Part shown: positions 10,857-33,329 of the stretch, one piece after another
How positions within the stretch are numbered: position 1 is the first letter of the stretch
How the letters are laid out: each line of letters opens with the position of its first letter
Origin: a virus
Direction: 5' to 3' (one strand)
Virus record (IMG/VR): IMGVR_UViG_3300006925_000061
Coordinates: 1-33,329 of that record
Length of the DNA stretch: 33,329 nucleotides
Notes under the pieces: model-generated
Database searches by the model: none
What the model was told of the DNA's origin: nothing
What the model saw: only the letters and a program-made list of their open reading frames with translations
Made by a program: the position numbers and the translations under genes

Positions 10857-13800
10857 ATGGCTGAAAATAATTCAATATCAACACTTTTACCAGAACTTCT
10901 TAGACTTTTTAATAATTCTTTAGAAAGTTTTGAAAAGGTTAATCAGGCCATAACTTCTAGTAATGAGTCGGTTACAATTAATATTCAAAATAATAACGGA
11001 ACAAACTCAAGAGTCACTATACCTAGTTTTGGCTTTCTTAAAAATTCAGTTGATAGACTGCAGAGTAATATAGATACAATTACCAACCTAAATGGTAGTA
11101 ACAGTTCTATTAGATTACCTGATGGGACTTTTAGAAAATTAGTACTTGCTAAATTGCCTACAGAGGCGCAAGATTTAAGTGCTATAAATTCAGTTGAAAA
11201 CTTTAATATTAAACCTAATTGGTTCTTTGAAGAATTAATTAACCCGTTACTATATGTATCATTTGATTTAACTGGGCAAGTTCCAATTGACACAGAAAGA
11301 GCCATAATTCAAAGATATATTTTAAATACAAATACTCAATCAAAGGTTAATTTTTTTACTGATAGTTTTGAAGGTAGGGCAGATATTAACTATAATGATT
11401 TTTTACAGGAAATTGTTGAGAGAAACATTTCATATGTATTGGATGAAGCAGTGGTTGATTTACCACCAAGAGTAAAGAGGTATACAGGAAACTTTAGTAT
11501 ATTAAGAATATCAGATGCAACGGTTACAGAGGAGGTAAACGGTGTTAGTGTCACATCTCAAAGAAAACAATATAAATTAAATAAAATATTTTACACTGAT
11601 TCTGAGGCTGACTTTGATGATACAATACAGTTAGCAGTAGGTGATAGTCTAGAAGTAATTAGCAATCCTATTAATACAAGGTATAGAGTTATAAAATTAG
11701 ATTCAAGCACTAACACAGTTATTTTAGAATTGGTTGAAGGATCCGAGCCTATAAGAATAGGCGCTGATATTCTAAAAATTGCATCATCACTAGAAGACAA
11801 TGTACAAGTAGACGTTACTGTTGGATTTAACGAAAGGTGTGTAACTTTTGTTAAGCCTATTGATCCTGATTCTAAAATACCTTCTGTTAATTGGTCACCT
11901 GGTAGTGCATTTTATACAAATACTTTAACCACATTAAATGCTGCAGGATCAGAACAAACTTTAGCAGAATATTACCAACAGAGTGCAATTGACTTTGGTG
12001 CAATGCTACTTTCATTTGCTGATGATAAGATACCTACAACAAGAGAAGGCGTTAAACCTAATTCACCAACTGTTAATGTAGAAGATTTTAGCGTTAAGCT
12101 TATCAATGCGCAAGTCAGCGATTCACCTGCAATAATAGAACTTACTGATTTAAATAATCAAAAGAATACAATTGAATCTACTCTTAAAGAATTAGACGGT
12201 GCAATTTCAAAAAGTAGAGCAAAGATACAAACTACAAATTATTCAACTGAAGTTGAGAGAGATGCTGATGTCAATGCATTACAAGGATTAGTCACTGAAA
12301 GATCATCACAGGCTGAATTATATTCATCTGTAGTAAAAGAAATAGATGCAAAGTCAAAAGATAATTCGGTATCAAGTATTTCACCTAAATATAGAGCTAG
12401 AGGATTTTGGGCAATGCCTGAGGAAAAATCCACACCGGCTACTGGAATACAATCTATAGTCAAATTTAAAATAAGATACCGTTATCTTTCTAGCGACGGT
12501 GCAGCTAATCCTGTTGATCAATTTAAGTTTAAAGATGGATCAGGTGAAAGCCAAGGTGCATTTTCTAATTATAATATTATAGATAGTACACTAAGACCTA
12601 GAACAAAAGATCCTATAACAGGTGTATATCAATGGGTAGAGATCGATGCTGATAATGCAGACTCAGTTAATATTAATCAATTAGATATACCTATAAGAAA
12701 GGGTGAACAGGTAGAAGTGCAAATAAAATCCATTAGTGAGGCTGGGTGGCCATCTAATCCATTAGAGAGTGATTGGTCAATTCCAGTAATAATAGCATTT
12801 CCAGCAGATCTTAGTTCTGATAATGCAGTAGAAGCTATAATTAATCAAAATCAACAAGATTTAGCAAAAGTTTCGTTAGAACAAGATCTTAATGAACTAG
12901 GTATCCAGGAACATTTAAGCAGTTCCTTTGTGGCTAATGAAACTTATTTTGCACATTCATCACCAGTAATTGCATCAGGGTTTTTATCCGAAAACCAAAC
13001 ACCTATAGATTTATTTACTAAATTAAATGAAATGCAAGCTAGACTAGACGAGTTTGCTGAGATACTAAGGAATGCACAAGGTGAGTTAGTTGTAACATTA
13101 ATTGACGACCAAGGTAATGTTACTAATTTAAATAGAAATTCTGTAACTAAAGTTTTTGCAGGATTTTATTCACAAGAAGTTTCTAACCTAGACGATCCTA
13201 GAGGAGCTGTTATATCCAAAACATTTTTTATTAATTTAGGAAACAGAGAACAGACTGGTTTAAGATTAGTATCAAGGGTTGCAGGAAATAGAAAAAGGAT
13301 GGTTAAGCAATCAGAAAATCCTAATTATACTTTAGCCGAGGCAACCGGAGGATCTGTTATTTTACCTGCAACATATTCTTGGTTAGATAACAGTGCCGTA
13401 AATCAAAGCAACGGTATATCAACATATAAAGCAGATGATGCCGATTATAACACAGTAAGAAAATATGACTTGGCACCTGTTCTTTTAACTAACCCAACAA
13501 TCGATGGTACATGGAGGTATGGGCAAACAACATCTATATCACCATTCCAGTCTACACAAAATAAAAATCAATTTATAAGTAGTAGGTTTAGTGATGTTTC
13601 ATCCGAAGAAGACTTTTATAGTTATAGAAATCCGGCTGGAGACTATACATTTAATTTAGATACCGCTGAAAACTTTTATGGTAGAACTACATTTAATGCC
13701 GTTCCTGTTGCTGGTGAATTTATTTGGGGTGGTGGTTTTGATGTAACGACAGGTTTACCTACAAGTGCAGCACAATATGATAATTTAGGTAACAGTGATA

Positions 13801-14780
13801 CATTGGAAATCCATATAACTCACCCATATGTCCAAAACTTTGATACCTATAGACAGGCTTATATAAATTTAACTGGAGATTCTACTACATTAGGTGCTGT
13901 TGGTAGCGGTTTACCTACAATTGCACAAGCAAATTGTACATCAGTGTCTGGTGGTGGAAACGGTACAGCAAATGTTATGTTTAGGCATTCTAAATTTATT
14001 CCTTTACAATCAGATGAGGATTTAGGTAAACAGCAAGCAATTTATTTAAATGAAGATGTATTAGATTTAGATGCAATGTCAAGTATTGCTCCCTTTGGTG
14101 GGGTTGCGTGGCCTAATGGTCAAACATTGATGGCTAGCCCTACTCTTACGGATATTGGGCCACTTGGAAATCCGGCAGATCCTAATTTAGTAAATGGTGG
14201 AAAGGGTTATGAAAGAAATACAAAAACTTCATTTGATGCGTTTGACCAATACACACTAGGAGAACAATCATGCGGATCTTATCTGTTTATTTCTAGTGAT
14301 GATCACCAAGGATTACAGGTTGGTGGAGATTCTATACAGTCTTCTGCTATTATACAATTTGGTCAACAAAACTCAGTTAATATACCTATGGTATTTCAAT
14401 ATAGAATGACTGATTATTTTGGTACAGGTGCAGGTAATGCAGGTGGTATAGGTAATATTGCAGGTGATACTACTGGTGCAACTGTTAATGTAACATATTC
14501 TAAAACTATTGGATTTGATATCTTCCCTAATAATCAGGATGTTTATCAGTATGATGTTGAAGTATTTGCAAAATATAGGTCTGATAATCTTAATATAGAT
14601 GTATTCCCATCGCAAACAGTAACTAAAGGTTTAAGTGACTTAGAAAAGGTATTAACTAAATTAAGCCCAAGCGTAACTGCAACCAGAGTTAATAGTATAG
14701 TTAGAACTGGTGGAGGAAGTATTGGTGGCGGTGGTGTTAATCAAGGATTCCAAGACGTTAATGAAGGTGCTAGTTTTTAA
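10857..14780 (+). CDS. Giant virion structural protein with coiled coils and FN3-like domain
   Basis: This 1307-aa protein has no recognised family. N-terminal residues 1-80 are Asn/Ser-rich helices. Residues about 428-500 are a heptad-like coiled coil (TIESTLKELDGAIS). Residues about 536-648 look like a fibronectin-III-type beta sandwich (FKIRYRY at the start, GEQVEVQIKSISEAGW near the end). A second helical stretch lies near 720-745 (MQARLDEFAEILRNA). The C-terminal half is glycine- and asparagine-rich beta sequence and ends with a Gly-rich GGGSIGGGG segment, probably flexible. The start follows a 25-nt A-rich gap. It belongs to the tail/baseplate-fibre block; a long fibre or peripheral baseplate protein is the best guess. 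Confidence 0.6.
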   Translation: MAENNSISTLLPELLRLFNNSLESFEKVNQAITSSNESVTINIQNNNGTNSRVTIPSFGFLKNSVDRLQSNIDTITNLNGSNSSIRLPDGTFRKLVLAKLPTEAQDLSAINSVENFNIKPNWFFEELINPLLYVSFDLTGQVPIDTERAIIQRYILNTNTQSKVNFFTDSFEGRADINYNDFLQEIVERNISYVLDEAVVDLPPRVKRYTGNFSILRISDATVTEEVNGVSVTSQRKQYKLNKIFYTDSEADFDDTIQLAVGDSLEVISNPINTRYRVIKLDSSTNTVILELVEGSEPIRIGADILKIASSLEDNVQVDVTVGFNERCVTFVKPIDPDSKIPSVNWSPGSAFYTNTLTTLNAAGSEQTLAEYYQQSAIDFGAMLLSFADDKIPTTREGVKPNSPTVNVEDFSVKLINAQVSDSPAIIELTDLNNQKNTIESTLKELDGAISKSRAKIQTTNYSTEVERDADVNALQGLVTERSSQAELYSSVVKEIDAKSKDNSVSSISPKYRARGFWAMPEEKSTPATGIQSIVKFKIRYRYLSSDGAANPVDQFKFKDGSGESQGAFSNYNIIDSTLRPRTKDPITGVYQWVEIDADNADSVNINQLDIPIRKGEQVEVQIKSISEAGWPSNPLESDWSIPVIIAFPADLSSDNAVEAIINQNQQDLAKVSLEQDLNELGIQEHLSSSFVANETYFAHSSPVIASGFLSENQTPIDLFTKLNEMQARLDEFAEILRNAQGELVVTLIDDQGNVTNLNRNSVTKVFAGFYSQEVSNLDDPRGAVISKTFFINLGNREQTGLRLVSRVAGNRKRMVKQSENPNYTLAEATGGSVILPATYSWLDNSAVNQSNGISTYKADDADYNTVRKYDLAPVLLTNPTIDGTWRYGQTTSISPFQSTQNKNQFISSRFSDVSSEEDFYSYRNPAGDYTFNLDTAENFYGRTTFNAVPVAGEFIWGGGFDVTTGLPTSAAQYDNLGNSDTLEIHITHPYVQNFDTYRQAYINLTGDSTTLGAVGSGLPTIAQANCTSVSGGGNGTANVMFRHSKFIPLQSDEDLGKQQAIYLNEDVLDLDAMSSIAPFGGVAWPNGQTLMASPTLTDIGPLGNPADPNLVNGGKGYERNTKTSFDAFDQYTLGEQSCGSYLFISSDDHQGLQVGGDSIQSSAIIQFGQQNSVNIPMVFQYRMTDYFGTGAGNAGGIGNIAGDTTGATVNVTYSKTIGFDIFPNNQDVYQYDVEVFAKYRSDNLNIDVFPSQTVTKGLSDLEKVLTKLSPSVTATRVNSIVRTGGGSIGGGGVNQGFQDVNEGASF

Positions 14781-26130: not shown

Positions 26131-26487
26131 ATGAAAACATTTAAAGATTACCTTACAGAAAATTCTGATGACTCAATTGACATTCAAAATTTATTAAATG
26201 AGTCACATGAATTAACTGAAGAACATGAGGCAGCAATTAATGCAGTTGTAGATAAATTAGTAGAAGATCATAATAACGGTAAAGATTTAGAATCTGCAAT
26301 GGAAGAAATAGTTAATGAAGGAATATTAGGTTCTATTTTAGGTGGTCTTACAGGGTTTGCTTTAGGTAAGGCTGTAGGTAAAGCAATTGCTAAAGTATTA
26401 GGTATTCAAAAGGGTGCCTTATATGATTTACTAACAAGTCGTTTGGTTGGTGCTGCATTAGGTGCAGTATTAGGTAAGCGCATTTAA
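26131..26487 (+). CDS. Candidate internal head protein: capsid-targeting-like N-terminus, glycine-zipper C-terminus
   Basis: This 118-aa protein begins MKTFKDYLTE. T4 internal proteins (IPII/IPIII) begin MKTYQEFI(A/N)E, the capsid-targeting sequence removed by the gp21 prohead protease after (L/I)xE. Here LTE occurs at residues 8-10 and again at 28-30. Residues 11-63 are acidic helix. Residues 64-118 are a glycine/alanine-rich, zipper-like membrane-active pattern (GILGSILGGLTG, GKAVGKAIAKVLG, GAALGAVLG). If cleaved, the mature part would be basic and hydrophobic and could insert into membranes during DNA entry. It has its own TATATAA element 23 nt upstream. It sits between tail and replication genes. 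Packaging and ejection roles are inferred. Confidence 0.6.
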   Translation: MKTFKDYLTENSDDSIDIQNLLNESHELTEEHEAAINAVVDKLVEDHNNGKDLESAMEEIVNEGILGSILGGLTGFALGKAVGKAIAKVLGIQKGALYDLLTSRLVGAALGAVLGKRI

Positions 26488-29947: not shown

Positions 29948-30396
29948 TGGCATTTGACGATAAACAAATAAAGGAAGCTAACGAGCAATTAGAAATTAGA
30001 TTAGGGACAGACCGAAATGATTGGAAGGCAAACATCAAAGACCTTGTTGCTAAGCTAAAAAATATGAATGAATTGGCTGAATGTCAAGTAAGAATGTTAT
30101 CATATAGGCAAATCCTATTAGATAAGGTAACTGATTTTAAAACTACCATATATAAAAGGAATGCTACGTGGGATAGGTATTATAAACAACAATACCGAGA
30201 GTATTCAATTAATTATGATGTTAAGTTAACTAATGGTGAAAAGAACCAATTTATAAAAGCAGATCTTTCTTCTCTTAGGCAACAAATAGATATGTTACAA
30301 TCTCATATAGATTATTATTATGAATGTATTAAGACATTAGATAATATGGCGTTTGCAATAAGAAACAGAATTAATCTGGATGATAAAGAATTTTAA
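29947..30396 (+). CDS. uvsY: Recombination mediator, UvsY-like
   Basis: The 149-aa protein is close to T4 UvsY (137 aa) and lies directly before UvsW, as uvsW and uvsY are adjacent in T4. It is helical: an N-terminal charged helix, a tyrosine-rich segment (KRNATWDRYYKQQYREY), a lysine/aspartate turn (NQFIKADLSSLRQQI), and a final helix (IKTLDNMAFAIRNRINLDD) like the UvsY C-terminus. UvsY loads UvsX recombinase onto gp32-coated ssDNA. No UvsX is visible in this window. The start overlaps the previous stop (TAATG). Similarity was judged by pattern and neighbourhood, so moderately sure. Confidence 0.65.
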   Translation: MAFDDKQIKEANEQLEIRLGTDRNDWKANIKDLVAKLKNMNELAECQVRMLSYRQILLDKVTDFKTTIYKRNATWDRYYKQQYREYSINYDVKLTNGEKNQFIKADLSSLRQQIDMLQSHIDYYYECIKTLDNMAFAIRNRINLDDKEF

Positions 30397-31898
30397 TGGA
30401 ATTATCTCTGTCGGAAAATAAAAAGTTTTTAGTAATTGATTCATGTACCGAGTTGGAATATGAACAGTTAAAATCTAGTCTTACTAAGAAAATAGAAGGC
30501 TGGAGATTCCACCCTTTAGTAAAGAAAAAGGTGTGGGATGGTAACATTTCATTTATTAAAAGAAATAAAATTCCTGCAGGTCTATGGAAAGAAGTAATTG
30601 ATATTTGTAAAGAATATGATTACCAATTTACATTAAATGGTATAACCGATATTTTTGATACCTCTATAGATGAAGAAATATTTAGATCTTGGGTAGATGA
30701 ATTTTTTGATACCTCTGAAATTAAACCTAGAGATTATCAAATTGATGCTGCTCTTAAAATTTTAAAGTATAGAAGATGTTTAGCTGAATTAGCAACATCG
30801 GCAGGTAAAACTTTAATTTCATTTATGGTGGTTGCTTATATGATGGAACAGTTAGGTAAAAAGAAAATCTTAATGATTGTACCTAATGTAAGTTTGGTCG
30901 TACAGGCAAGTGGAGATTTTGAAGAATACAATAAAGGCAGAGTACCTATTAAGATTCAACAAATTTATGCAGGAGTTAAACTAAGAAAAAGTTCTAATGT
31001 AGTTATTGGTACATATCAATCATTAACTAAAAAAGATGAGGAATACTTTAGCCAATTTGATGCTGTCTTTGTAGATGAAACTCATAAAGCAAAAGCAAAT
31101 TCAATCCAAAAGATAATGGATAAATGTTGGCACTGTGATTATAGATTTGGTTTAAGTGGTACTATTCCTAAAAGAGGAACTGTAAATAGACTAAGTTTAA
31201 TGTCGGCAATGGGCCCTTTAGTTACACAAGTAAAGGCTGCTCATTTACAAGATGAAGGTTATATTGCAAAATGTAAAGTATTACAGATCCACATGGATTA
31301 TGCAACAGATTCACAAAAAGAAGCATTTTCATCCCTTTCCAAAAACCCTTATGATAGACAAAAGTTATTTAGTTTAGAGCAAAACTTTATTAATGAAAGT
31401 GAAAAAAGGCTAGATTTTATTTGCCAAGTAATTAAAAAGTCAACTTCAAATTCATTAGTTCTATTTCATAAAATAGCATACGGTGAAAAGATTTACCAAA
31501 AACTTAGATCAATAACAGATAAAAAAGTCTATTATGTAGATGGATCTGTTAAGTCTGATTTTAGAGAAGAGTTTAAAAAGAGAATGGAAAAGAATGACGA
31601 TGTTATAATTGTAGCATCATACGGTACCTTTTCAACAGGTATTTCTATTAAAAATATACATAACATATTTTTTACTGAATCCTTTAAATCAGAAGTTATT
31701 ATTAGACAATCAATTGGTAGAGGTTTAAGAAAACATTCATCAAAGGATGTGGTAAAAATATATGACTTTATTGACGACCTACGGTATAAAGTAGATGACC
31801 ATGACTGGGTGAATTACATATATAGGCATGGTATGGAACGAAGGAAAATTTACAAAGAAGAAAAGTTTCCTTTTGAGGTACAGAATGTTAGATACTAA
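30396..31898 (+). CDS. uvsW: DNA/RNA helicase, UvsW
   Basis: The 500-aa protein matches T4 UvsW (503 aa). It is a superfamily 2 helicase: Walker A A133-TSAGKT139, Walker B D227-E-T-H230 (VDETHKA), motif III S254-G-T256, and motif VI Q438-S-I-G-R-G-L-R445. N-terminal residues 1-110 (WDGNISFIKRNKIPAGL) form the UvsW accessory domain. UvsW drives branch migration and removes R-loops, stopping origin-type initiation late in T4 infection. It overlaps the UvsY-like stop (TAATG). It ends the replication/recombination run; a weak hairpin follows at 31907. Sure. Confidence 0.9.
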   Translation: MELSLSENKKFLVIDSCTELEYEQLKSSLTKKIEGWRFHPLVKKKVWDGNISFIKRNKIPAGLWKEVIDICKEYDYQFTLNGITDIFDTSIDEEIFRSWVDEFFDTSEIKPRDYQIDAALKILKYRRCLAELATSAGKTLISFMVVAYMMEQLGKKKILMIVPNVSLVVQASGDFEEYNKGRVPIKIQQIYAGVKLRKSSNVVIGTYQSLTKKDEEYFSQFDAVFVDETHKAKANSIQKIMDKCWHCDYRFGLSGTIPKRGTVNRLSLMSAMGPLVTQVKAAHLQDEGYIAKCKVLQIHMDYATDSQKEAFSSLSKNPYDRQKLFSLEQNFINESEKRLDFICQVIKKSTSNSLVLFHKIAYGEKIYQKLRSITDKKVYYVDGSVKSDFREEFKKRMEKNDDVIIVASYGTFSTGISIKNIHNIFFTESFKSEVIIRQSIGRGLRKHSSKDVVKIYDFIDDLRYKVDDHDWVNYIYRHGMERRKIYKEEKFPFEVQNVRY

Positions 31899-31906
31899 TA
31901 TAGAAT

Positions 31907-31924
31907 ATCTTTCTCATGAGAGAT
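31907..31924 (+). terminator. Weak hairpin between UvsW and the acidic gene
   Basis: ATCTTTC (31907-31913) pairs with GAGAGAT (31918-31924), seven pairs including one T-G wobble, loop TCAT. It lies 8 nt after the UvsW stop and no T-run follows, so as a terminator it would be weak. It could also be a promoter-distal structure. Confidence 0.25.
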
Positions 31925-31927
31925 GGA

Positions 31928-31938
31928 TATATAAAAAA
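31928..31938 (+). promoter_or_regulatory. Candidate late promoter element before acidic gene
   Basis: TATATAAAAAA lies 34 nt before the ATG at 31962, in the A-rich leader of the acidic gene. It resembles the elements at 1, 2217, 26108 and 27583, but its distance differs (34 rather than 23), so the call is weaker than those. Confidence 0.3.
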
Positions 31939-31961: not shown

Positions 31962-33329
31962 ATGAAACCAATCAAAAAGTTTTCAATGATAGCTAAAGCC
32001 GGTGATTCAATCAATGAATCTGCTGATGCTAATCACGATGCTGTAATGGATCTTGTTAAAAAGATGGGGTATGACAGTGTTGAAGAATTAAAGAAAGAAA
32101 AGAATCTTCTAACAAAATTAGAAGGTATTATTAAAGAATTCACACCAAAGCAAGATATATCTGAAGATGAACTTGAAGAAGATAGAGCTGAGGACATAGC
32201 TGATGAAATTAAGAAAAAAGGCGAGCCTAAATCTTTAGAAGGTGATGAAGGTGAAAAGGAAGAAGATAAGGAAGTAGGTGCTACTGGTGAAGTTGCTGAA
32301 GAAACTGAAGAAGTTGAAGAAGATAAGGCAAAAGATATCGAGGATGAAGTATTGGCTAAAGGTGAACCTAAAGATTTAGAAGATAAAGCTGGTGATAAGG
32401 TTTCTGACGACCCTGCAATTACTGACGAGGTTCCTGCTGAAGCTGATGAAGTAGAAGATGAGGATGGTGTTGAGGTTGCTGCTGAAGAGGAAGAGACTCC
32501 AGCTGCTACTAAAAGAATTATGGCTTTTGAGGATTTTATTAAAGAAAAGGAAGTTACAGTAAATAAGAATGTAAAATATCACGATGATGATGAAGAGCCT
32601 GAAGATTATGCTGTTCCTGTAGCGGCATCTGCTAAACCACTTGCTGAAGACGATGATGAAGACGAAGGTGAAGATGACGAAAAGAAAGGCGATGAATTAG
32701 AAGATAAAGGCGATGTTAAAGTGGATCATGAAGATGATAAAGAAAAGGAAGACCACTATAAAGGAGCTGTTAAATCTGATGATGCTGAAATTGATGCATT
32801 AAAGAAAGATGTTGAATACGACAAAGAGGAAGAAGAAGACGATAAGAATGAATCAAGAATCATGTCATTTGCAAACTTTGTAACTGAATCTTATGAAGAC
32901 ACCGATGAAGAAGTTGATGAAGAAGAAATGGAAGCTGAAGAAGAAGAAGCTGTTGAAGAAGCTGTCGGTGAAGTAATTACTAAAGTTACAGGTGATGAAA
33001 TTGCCGATGAAGAAGCAGGTGATGATGGTCTTGCTATTCCTGCAGAAAAAGGTGACGGTTCTGAAACTGCTGCTGGTATTGCTGGTGATATAATGGATAT
33101 GGGTAAGCCAAAAGAACAGCCTGAATCAAAAGGTGAAGAATTGGTTACTAAAGATCAAAATATTACAACCGAAGTAAAAGGTGAAGCTGATGATCTTAAG
33201 GATGCTACTGAAGTTCCTGCAGAAATGGGCGACGGTTCCGAAACTGCCGCCGGTATTGCTGGAGATATAATGGATATGGGTAAGCCAAAAGAACAGCCTG
33301 AAGCAAAAGGTGAAGCATTAGTTGGAGAA
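31962..33329 (+). CDS. Highly acidic repeat protein, candidate prohead core/scaffold precursor (3' end cut off)
   Basis: An ATG at 31962 opens a frame of at least 456 codons with no stop, running to the window end. Residues 1-75 are mixed and helical; the rest is dominated by Glu/Asp with Ala, Lys and Gly. Two internal segments, MAFEDFIKE (M187) and MSFANFVTE (M301), repeat the N-terminal motif of the candidate internal proteins, and each follows RI. Two repeat families are seen: residues 76-99 and 123-146 (ADEIKKKGEPKSLEG type), and a 59-residue tandem (residues 359 and 418 onward, GDGSETAAGIAGDIMDMGKP). T4 core proteins gp22/gp67 are acidic and are cut by the gp21 protease into internal peptides; this protein could be such a precursor. 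The CDS is sure; the role is inferred. Confidence 0.65.
   Translation, partial: MKPIKKFSMIAKAGDSINESADANHDAVMDLVKKMGYDSVEELKKEKNLLTKLEGIIKEFTPKQDISEDELEEDRAEDIADEIKKKGEPKSLEGDEGEKEEDKEVGATGEVAEETEEVEEDKAKDIEDEVLAKGEPKDLEDKAGDKVSDDPAITDEVPAEADEVEDEDGVEVAAEEEETPAATKRIMAFEDFIKEKEVTVNKNVKYHDDDEEPEDYAVPVAASAKPLAEDDDEDEGEDDEKKGDELEDKGDVKVDHEDDKEKEDHYKGAVKSDDAEIDALKKDVEYDKEEEEDDKNESRIMSFANFVTESYEDTDEEVDEEEMEAEEEEAVEEAVGEVITKVTGDEIADEEAGDDGLAIPAEKGDGSETAAGIAGDIMDMGKPKEQPESKGEELVTKDQNITTEVKGEADDLKDATEVPAEMGDGSETAAGIAGDIMDMGKPKEQPEAKGEALVGE
32187..32399 (+). repeat. Paired repeat in the acidic protein (141-nt period)
   Basis: The units 32187-32258 and 32328-32399 encode similar 24-residue segments (AEDIADEIKKKGEPK and AKDIEDEVLAKGEPK, then a Leu-Glu and Gly-Asp/Glu end). 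The period is 141 nt (47 codons). The copies have diverged in DNA and protein, so this is an old internal duplication. Confidence 0.6.
33036..33329 (+). repeat. Tandem 177-nt repeat in the acidic protein
   Basis: A unit starting at 33036 recurs at 33213, a 59-codon period. Both copies encode (I/V)PAE then GDGSETAAGIAGDIMDMGKP and KEQPE(S/A)KGE. The second copy is cut by the window end. The DNA is strongly conserved (long identical runs around the central GATATAATGGATATG), with mostly third-position differences, so it is a recent duplication or one under purifying selection. Confidence 0.75.

Follow-up and report, generated by a model that had tools for sequence, protein, structure and literature searches.

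The last open frame of a 33,329-base virus record (the window, meaning the whole stretch of DNA that was analysed) probably encodes a late, head-directed precursor of the T4-core type, processed at several sites, in a marine phage of the T4 superfamily. Because address-and-cut signals are repeated along the chain, the protein probably enters the head during its growth and is cut into several pieces inside it. Our best reading of the window gene is as the acidic variant within a modular family of head polyproteins. In that family, a view we favour with less assurance, a constant head-targeting N-domain and a three-helix C-domain would frame exchangeable cassettes bounded by protease sites, several products would be released per gene, and the capsid-targeting sequences (CTS) would imitate the scaffold repeat. 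Against the best explanation, the gene adjoins recombination genes and has no head genes beside it.

The acidic gene and its surroundings

Judged by gene content, the window belongs to a T4-superfamily phage. Its structural genes encode baseplate, neck and tail tube proteins, and further genes encode RuvC, a GroES-like protein, a gp32-like protein, primase, a UvsY-like protein and UvsW, with the acidic frame last (Table 1). Many IMG/VR contigs are 85-100% identical to the window, and the closest sequenced relative by UvsW, at 58% identity, is the uncultured 462-kb phage LR756500.

The frame that opens at 31962 proves to be a genuine gene. In relatives it starts 59-68 nt after uvsW, and dN/dS of 0.12-0.22 between relatives and the window copy indicates purifying selection, with the lowest values in or near the motif-1 block. 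The original prediction of a Glu/Asp-rich frame of at least 456 codons was borne out (D+E 35.5%, K+R 12.3%, pI 4.06), and 46 complete copies from related contigs are 409-665 aa long. The two kinds of repeat and two internal motifs that it described are likewise present. The linker repeat has the consensus EDxAxDIxDExxxKGEPKxLE, and some relatives add 1-4 copies of YDxVxxGGNKGDKSKT. AlphaFold places order mainly at both ends of the protein (N-terminal helices at 25-34 and 40-60), with short helices at both motifs and disorder elsewhere; the C-domain modelled alone is confident (pLDDT 90). Profile searches of PHROGs, Pfam and PDB with the acidic protein gave no match, Pfam returning sub-threshold composition hits only, and tblastn against 50,697 phage records and bacterial and archaeal genome contigs found nothing.

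Two further features of the region were seen in relatives. At L152:9001-11353 uvsW is interrupted and an HNH-type ORF is inserted near, possibly an intron or homing element. In G001 a long low-complexity repeat region (76344-83573, flipped gene-table coordinates) lies at the contig end, and because of these repeats the assemblies of the lineage may break there.

Table 1. Features of the window and of related head loci (a slash marks a predicted cut)
Feature	Location	Strand	Remarks
118-aa motif-bearing protein	26131..26487	+	N-terminal targeting motif MKTFKDYLTE/N; Gly-rich hydrophobic C-terminal half
UvsW helicase	30396..31898	+	constant 5' neighbour of acidic gene
Promoter-like element	31905..31934	+	ATATCTTT-N13-GATATATAA; conserved; class found before virion genes
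Acidic head-polyprotein ORF (putative), 5' part	31962..33329	+	456 codons; ATG at 31962, stop beyond window
N-terminal propeptide (predicted)	31962..32018	+	MKPIKKFSMIAKAGDSINE; aa 1-19; in register with T4 IPI propeptide MKTFKEFTSTTTPVSTITE
N-terminal helical domain	32019..32165	+	aa 20-68; ends at invariant DISE/
Linker repeat unit, copy 1	32178..32240	+	EDRAEDIADEIKKKGEPKSLE; aa 73
Linker repeat unit, copy 2	32319..32381	+	EDKAKDIEDEVLAKGEPKDLE; aa 120
Internal motif 1	32514..32546	+	RIMAFEDFIKE/; aa 185-195; capsid-targeting-like; predicted cut after E195
Internal motif 2	32856..32888	+	RIMSFANFVTE/; aa 299-309; capsid-targeting-like; predicted cut after E309
C-terminal-half repeat, copy 1	33051..33125	+	GDGSETAAGIAGDIMDMGKPKEQPE; aa 364
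C-terminal-half repeat, copy 2	33228..33302	+	GDGSETAAGIAGDIMDMGKPKEQPE; aa 423
S77 prohead protease-scaffold fusion	L213:7079-8884; L321:8183-9904; LR756500 226725-228623		14-residue YSEYIAENVDKSI-like repeats

Targeting motifs and predicted cut sites

Both internal motifs have the layout of the T4 IPIII CTS, MKTYQEFIAE, in which residues 4 and 7 serve targeting and residues 8 and 10 processing; the T4 protease gp21 cleaves after L/I-x-E (PMC9026906). Each carries the aromatic residues at 4 and 7, the aliphatic residue at 8 and the Glu at 10. Across 33 aligned complete relatives (L003 numbering) F186, F189 and E192 are invariant in motif 1, and F306, F309, V310 and E312 in motif 2, while the residues beside these determinants vary; the sole exception to the determinants in these 33 is one Cys at position 8. 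Shuffled family proteins give 0.01-0.03 motifs each (about 0.02 per protein), and no second protein with two strict motifs was found among 314 ORFs of at least 60 aa on the contigs of four relatives. In a control of 37 T4 proteins the strict motif occurs in IPII, IPIII and the gp23 cut site (FGSFLTE, residue 65), with two further matches in gp6 and gp20. LR756500 shows no enrichment of internal motifs (31 against 28 expected), so that their presence cannot be taken as general, and some motif-bearing proteins of that phage may not be head proteins.

The original prediction overlooked a third signal, at the N-terminus. There MKPIKKFS-7-SINE/S aligns gaplessly with the T4 IPI propeptide MKTFKEFT-7-TITE/A, and residue 20 is the first of the mature IPI chain (2JUB). 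The predicted propeptide thus ends in [LI]xE followed by A or S, with E19/S20 invariant in the 33 relatives where IPI has E19/A20.

Leaving aside the folded ends, the alignment of these 33 complete sequences contains 94 Glu columns, and five of them (19, 68, 192, 312 and 462, L003 numbering) are invariant. All five stand in the [ILV]xE context, against 6 of the 89 variable ones (Fisher P 8.4e-6, an approximate figure and not a clean probability, because the 33 sequences are related). They sit at the borders between propeptide, helical N-domain, three acidic segments of 120-150 aa (net charge -42, -36 and -34) and C-domain. L112, a divergent relative outside the alignment, keeps all five; among members of the wider family the final site sometimes departs from [ILV]xE (TNE in L313, ANE in L295). 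The [ILV]xE rule is that of the T4 prohead protease, transferred here by analogy, and it seems valid in the lineage because Glu 9, 21 and 46 of the capsid propeptide are 98-100% conserved, all in [ILV]xE, across 52 capsid proteins from the wider lineage.

The motifs might instead only dock the chain to the scaffold, leaving the whole protein uncut as a flexible core clamp. In T4 the two steps are separable, Asp at CTS position 10 stopping processing and not targeting (PMC9026906), and in L152, the most distant acidic relative, Q replaces E at position 10 of motif 1 (FINQ; contig end). However, the P1 Glu is invariant at five sites, three of which (19, 68 and 462) have no internal aromatic motif, and we consider an uncut cross-linker improbable.

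Head genes, the scaffold repeat and the promoter-like element

Portal and capsid genes do not adjoin the acidic gene, as originally noted for the side that lies within the window. In the lineage the portal, an S77 protease-scaffold fusion and a gp23-type capsid protein form one cluster elsewhere. On contig G019 (181 kb) a window-type acidic gene, at about 174.2-176.0 kb, occurs together with the head cluster (capsid gene at about 20.0-21.9 kb), and in G020 (166 kb) a family gene lies about 31 kb from the capsid gene on one contig. In most window-type head loci some 50 nt separate the portal and protease genes. The scaffold part of the fusion consists of a 14-residue repeat, Y[SA]EY[IVL]AE, and contains 9-10 strict copies of the targeting motif, mostly at 14-residue spacing, against 0.12 expected. 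One motif is thus common to scaffold and cargo of the lineage, which would imply that capsid-targeting sequences are imitations of the scaffold repeat.

Other motif-bearing genes were observed around the head cluster. In L160 a separate one (MKHVKTFDKFIAE) follows the protease-scaffold fusion. In window-type relatives a Lys/Glu-rich protein (L213:10861-12039 and homologues) is encoded directly 3' of the capsid gene, and its N-terminus, MKRVKSYNEFIAES, is nearly that of the T4 IPIII targeting sequence. G020 carries a 134-aa motif-bearing gene (MRYVKLFEQFIKE; L323:13463-13867) in the portal-protease interval, the place of gp67/gp68 in T4.

It had been suggested that downstream genes unrelated to head assembly would speak against a head role. 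Portal, protease and capsid genes do not follow, and no classical head gene is adjacent; the downstream region nevertheless does not look unrelated to head assembly, because the next gene bears the motif in 47 of 51 cases, compared with a background of 27 of 314 (9%). Of the ten genes that follow the family gene in G020, most start with a motif, e.g. MKHIKLFEQFINE. Within the window, the 118-aa protein is the second member of the motif-bearing set; its gene directly follows the tail tube gene, its relatives have a TATATAA box upstream, and it is a candidate injected membrane protein.

Several other products of motif-bearing or neighbouring genes deserve mention. The motif-bearing genes 3' of the acidic gene at L082:11284-16664 include one whose 423-aa product contains a nucleotidyltransferase/ligase-like EKTDGQ stretch, as well as genes for a protein of about 1000 aa with EKLSGSS and for an NMN adenylyltransferase-like protein, these last two being fused in LR756500. 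A small basic-tailed protein (L082:16664-16891; L085:17812-18234; LR756500 265261-265644) contains a copy of the N-arm of the mature capsid protein, NPNMNVQGMGxVxLPGDPG..GSGD, then a run of Lys and, at the C-terminus, an F..F element; it may be a capsid-arm mimic. LR756500 also encodes leucine-rich-repeat-like proteins (13446-14282, 180972-181730, 198758-199531 and 331856-332545) with capsid-targeting-like N-termini (MKYIKEYEEFILEA), possibly packaged effectors.

The element upstream of the acidic gene, ending in GGATATATAAAAAAA, is near-invariant across 29 distinct upstream regions. A TATATAA box precedes 53 of 314 genes, compared with 15.7 expected (dinucleotide shuffle; maximum 26 in 200), and its position peaks 20-30 nt before the start. 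Several of the genes for baseplate, portal and protease and of the motif-bearing genes have it, and uvsW, uvsY and primase lack it. The element appears to resemble a T4-type late promoter.

The constant position directly 3' of uvsW could also be expected of a cytoplasmic acidic protein tied to recombination or replication through its uvsY/uvsW neighbourhood, with incidental head-like motifs. We regard this as very improbable given the low chance level of the motifs, the invariance of their determinants, the motif in the downstream genes, and a late-type promoter element of the gene's own that uvsW, uvsY and primase lack. The original proposal of a multi-segment acidic precursor is instead strengthened by the five invariant [ILV]xE borders, the motif shared with the scaffold, the IPI-like N-terminus and the late-type promoter element.

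Comparison with known systems and the wider family

The motifs with their conservation, the pattern of sites, the promoter element, synteny and the family are seen in the sequences themselves, and from them we infer the targeting, the cleavage and the fate of the pieces. In the proposed sequence of events, the IPI-type propeptide and the two internal CTS-like motifs would bring the chain to the core of the prohead, as in T4 by way of the scaffold, whose tandem repeat is built from the same motif. The S77 prohead protease of the lineage would then cut after Glu at the five [ILV]xE sites (L003 19, 68, 192, 312 and 462). The products would be a small helical domain from the N-terminus, a three-helix domain from the C-terminus and, between them, three acidic segments that are mostly disordered. 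These segments would most likely be core filler, like the gp67 and gp22 peptides of T4, and would be largely lost before DNA packaging, which is the least certain step.

The protein resembles T4 IPI, IPII and IPIII in its aromatic-xx-aromatic-aliphatic-x-Glu motif and in the 19-residue propeptide in register with IPI. T4 internal proteins are short, with a single N-terminal cut, whereas the acidic protein is long and very acidic, with internal motif copies and five predicted cuts. The comparison with gp22 and gp67 made in the original prediction stands for the acidic, multi-site pattern and fails for a gp22-type scaffold. Like gp67 (pI 4.05), the protein has a helical N-part, an acidic run and several [LI]xE sites, a match in composition and sites at the level of sequence; in contrast, it is 5-8 times longer and has a conserved C-domain as well as targeting motifs, searches of PHROGs, Pfam and PDB gave no match that connects it with gp67, and its gene sits behind uvsW and not in the portal-protease interval. 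With gp22, an acidic core protein, it shares multiple [LI]xE sites, but it is mostly disordered and is no coiled-coil scaffold. The gp22 place between protease and major capsid genes is occupied by the protease-scaffold fusion, and a gp22 homologue was rejected because the scaffold was found elsewhere, fused to the protease near portal and capsid.

Inner-body and ejection head proteins of phiKZ and SPN3US have propeptides cut after xxE by the prohead protease; in the part of that account considered here these are mostly single long N-terminal propeptides, and cassettes are not reported (PMC5694885). Polyvalent proteins of phages and conjugative elements join several unrelated modules in one chain and are thought to be packaged and injected (PMC5512222). 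Unlike these, the present family has small modules, prohead-protease-type sites between them and constant head-targeting ends, and no enzymatic domain was recognised in it.

The C-terminal three-helix domain joins the acidic gene to this wider family. A search with the domain found 64 distinct complete proteins, nearly all encoded just 3' of uvsW, and 18 of them are not of the acidic-linker type found in the window. In these, small folded modules separated by [ILV]xE sites followed by A or S can replace the acidic linkers between similar ends; the exception is the minimal relative L393 (166 aa), which recalls gp67 and consists of N-domain, a poly-Asp run and C-domain. Modules match PHROG families 1987 and 5922, where no function is assigned, and neither window-type nor cargo-type members have a Pfam domain above the cut-off. 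Most full-length members of the MEKL/MAKL group contain 4-9 [LIV]xE[AS] sites against 1.5-2 expected, compared with 114 sites in total against 92 expected in 98 control proteins. L338 differs from L335, L351, L358, L359, L361 and L362 by a 95-98 aa insert with both borders at most 2 residues from a site; these six comparisons are non-independent, and the border test is clean for close relatives only, cassette borders in distant pairs scattering relative to sites. Foldseek with the C-terminal domain gave viral matches up to TM 0.87 to uncharacterised proteins, including those of Tenacibaculum phages PTm1 and PTm5, with no PDB match and no E-value below 0.001, and no profile match of the domain was found in PTm5 or LR756500. 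The positional analogue in LR756500, adjoining its uvsW (269766-270629; 287 aa, pI 5.8), has no significant similarity to the acidic protein.

T4 internal proteins are injected and act early in the new host. The pieces of the acidic protein might similarly stay in the head and be injected, e.g. to serve early in the new host as chaperones or as acidic mimics of DNA. The motif-bearing neighbours look like cargo (the NMN adenylyltransferase-like protein, small folded proteins), cargo-type relatives contain the folded modules with PHROG matches, and the C-terminal domain is predicted to fold well. The acidic segments, however, are mostly disordered and vary in length with the protein (409-665 aa), as would be expected of filler rather than of an enzyme or a specific inhibitor, and retention with injection seems unlikely. 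For the role of the acidic pieces, gp67-like core filler is our first choice and injected acidic peptides our second.

If the polyprotein reading is true, tailed phages would use polyproteins within their heads and exchange the modules of these at protease sites. The T4 capsid-targeting sequence would receive a testable explanation, as its counterpart in this lineage resembles a single unit of the 14-residue scaffold repeat. For large uncultured marine phages, a simple sequence rule would then list the proteins that are packed in the head and probably injected.
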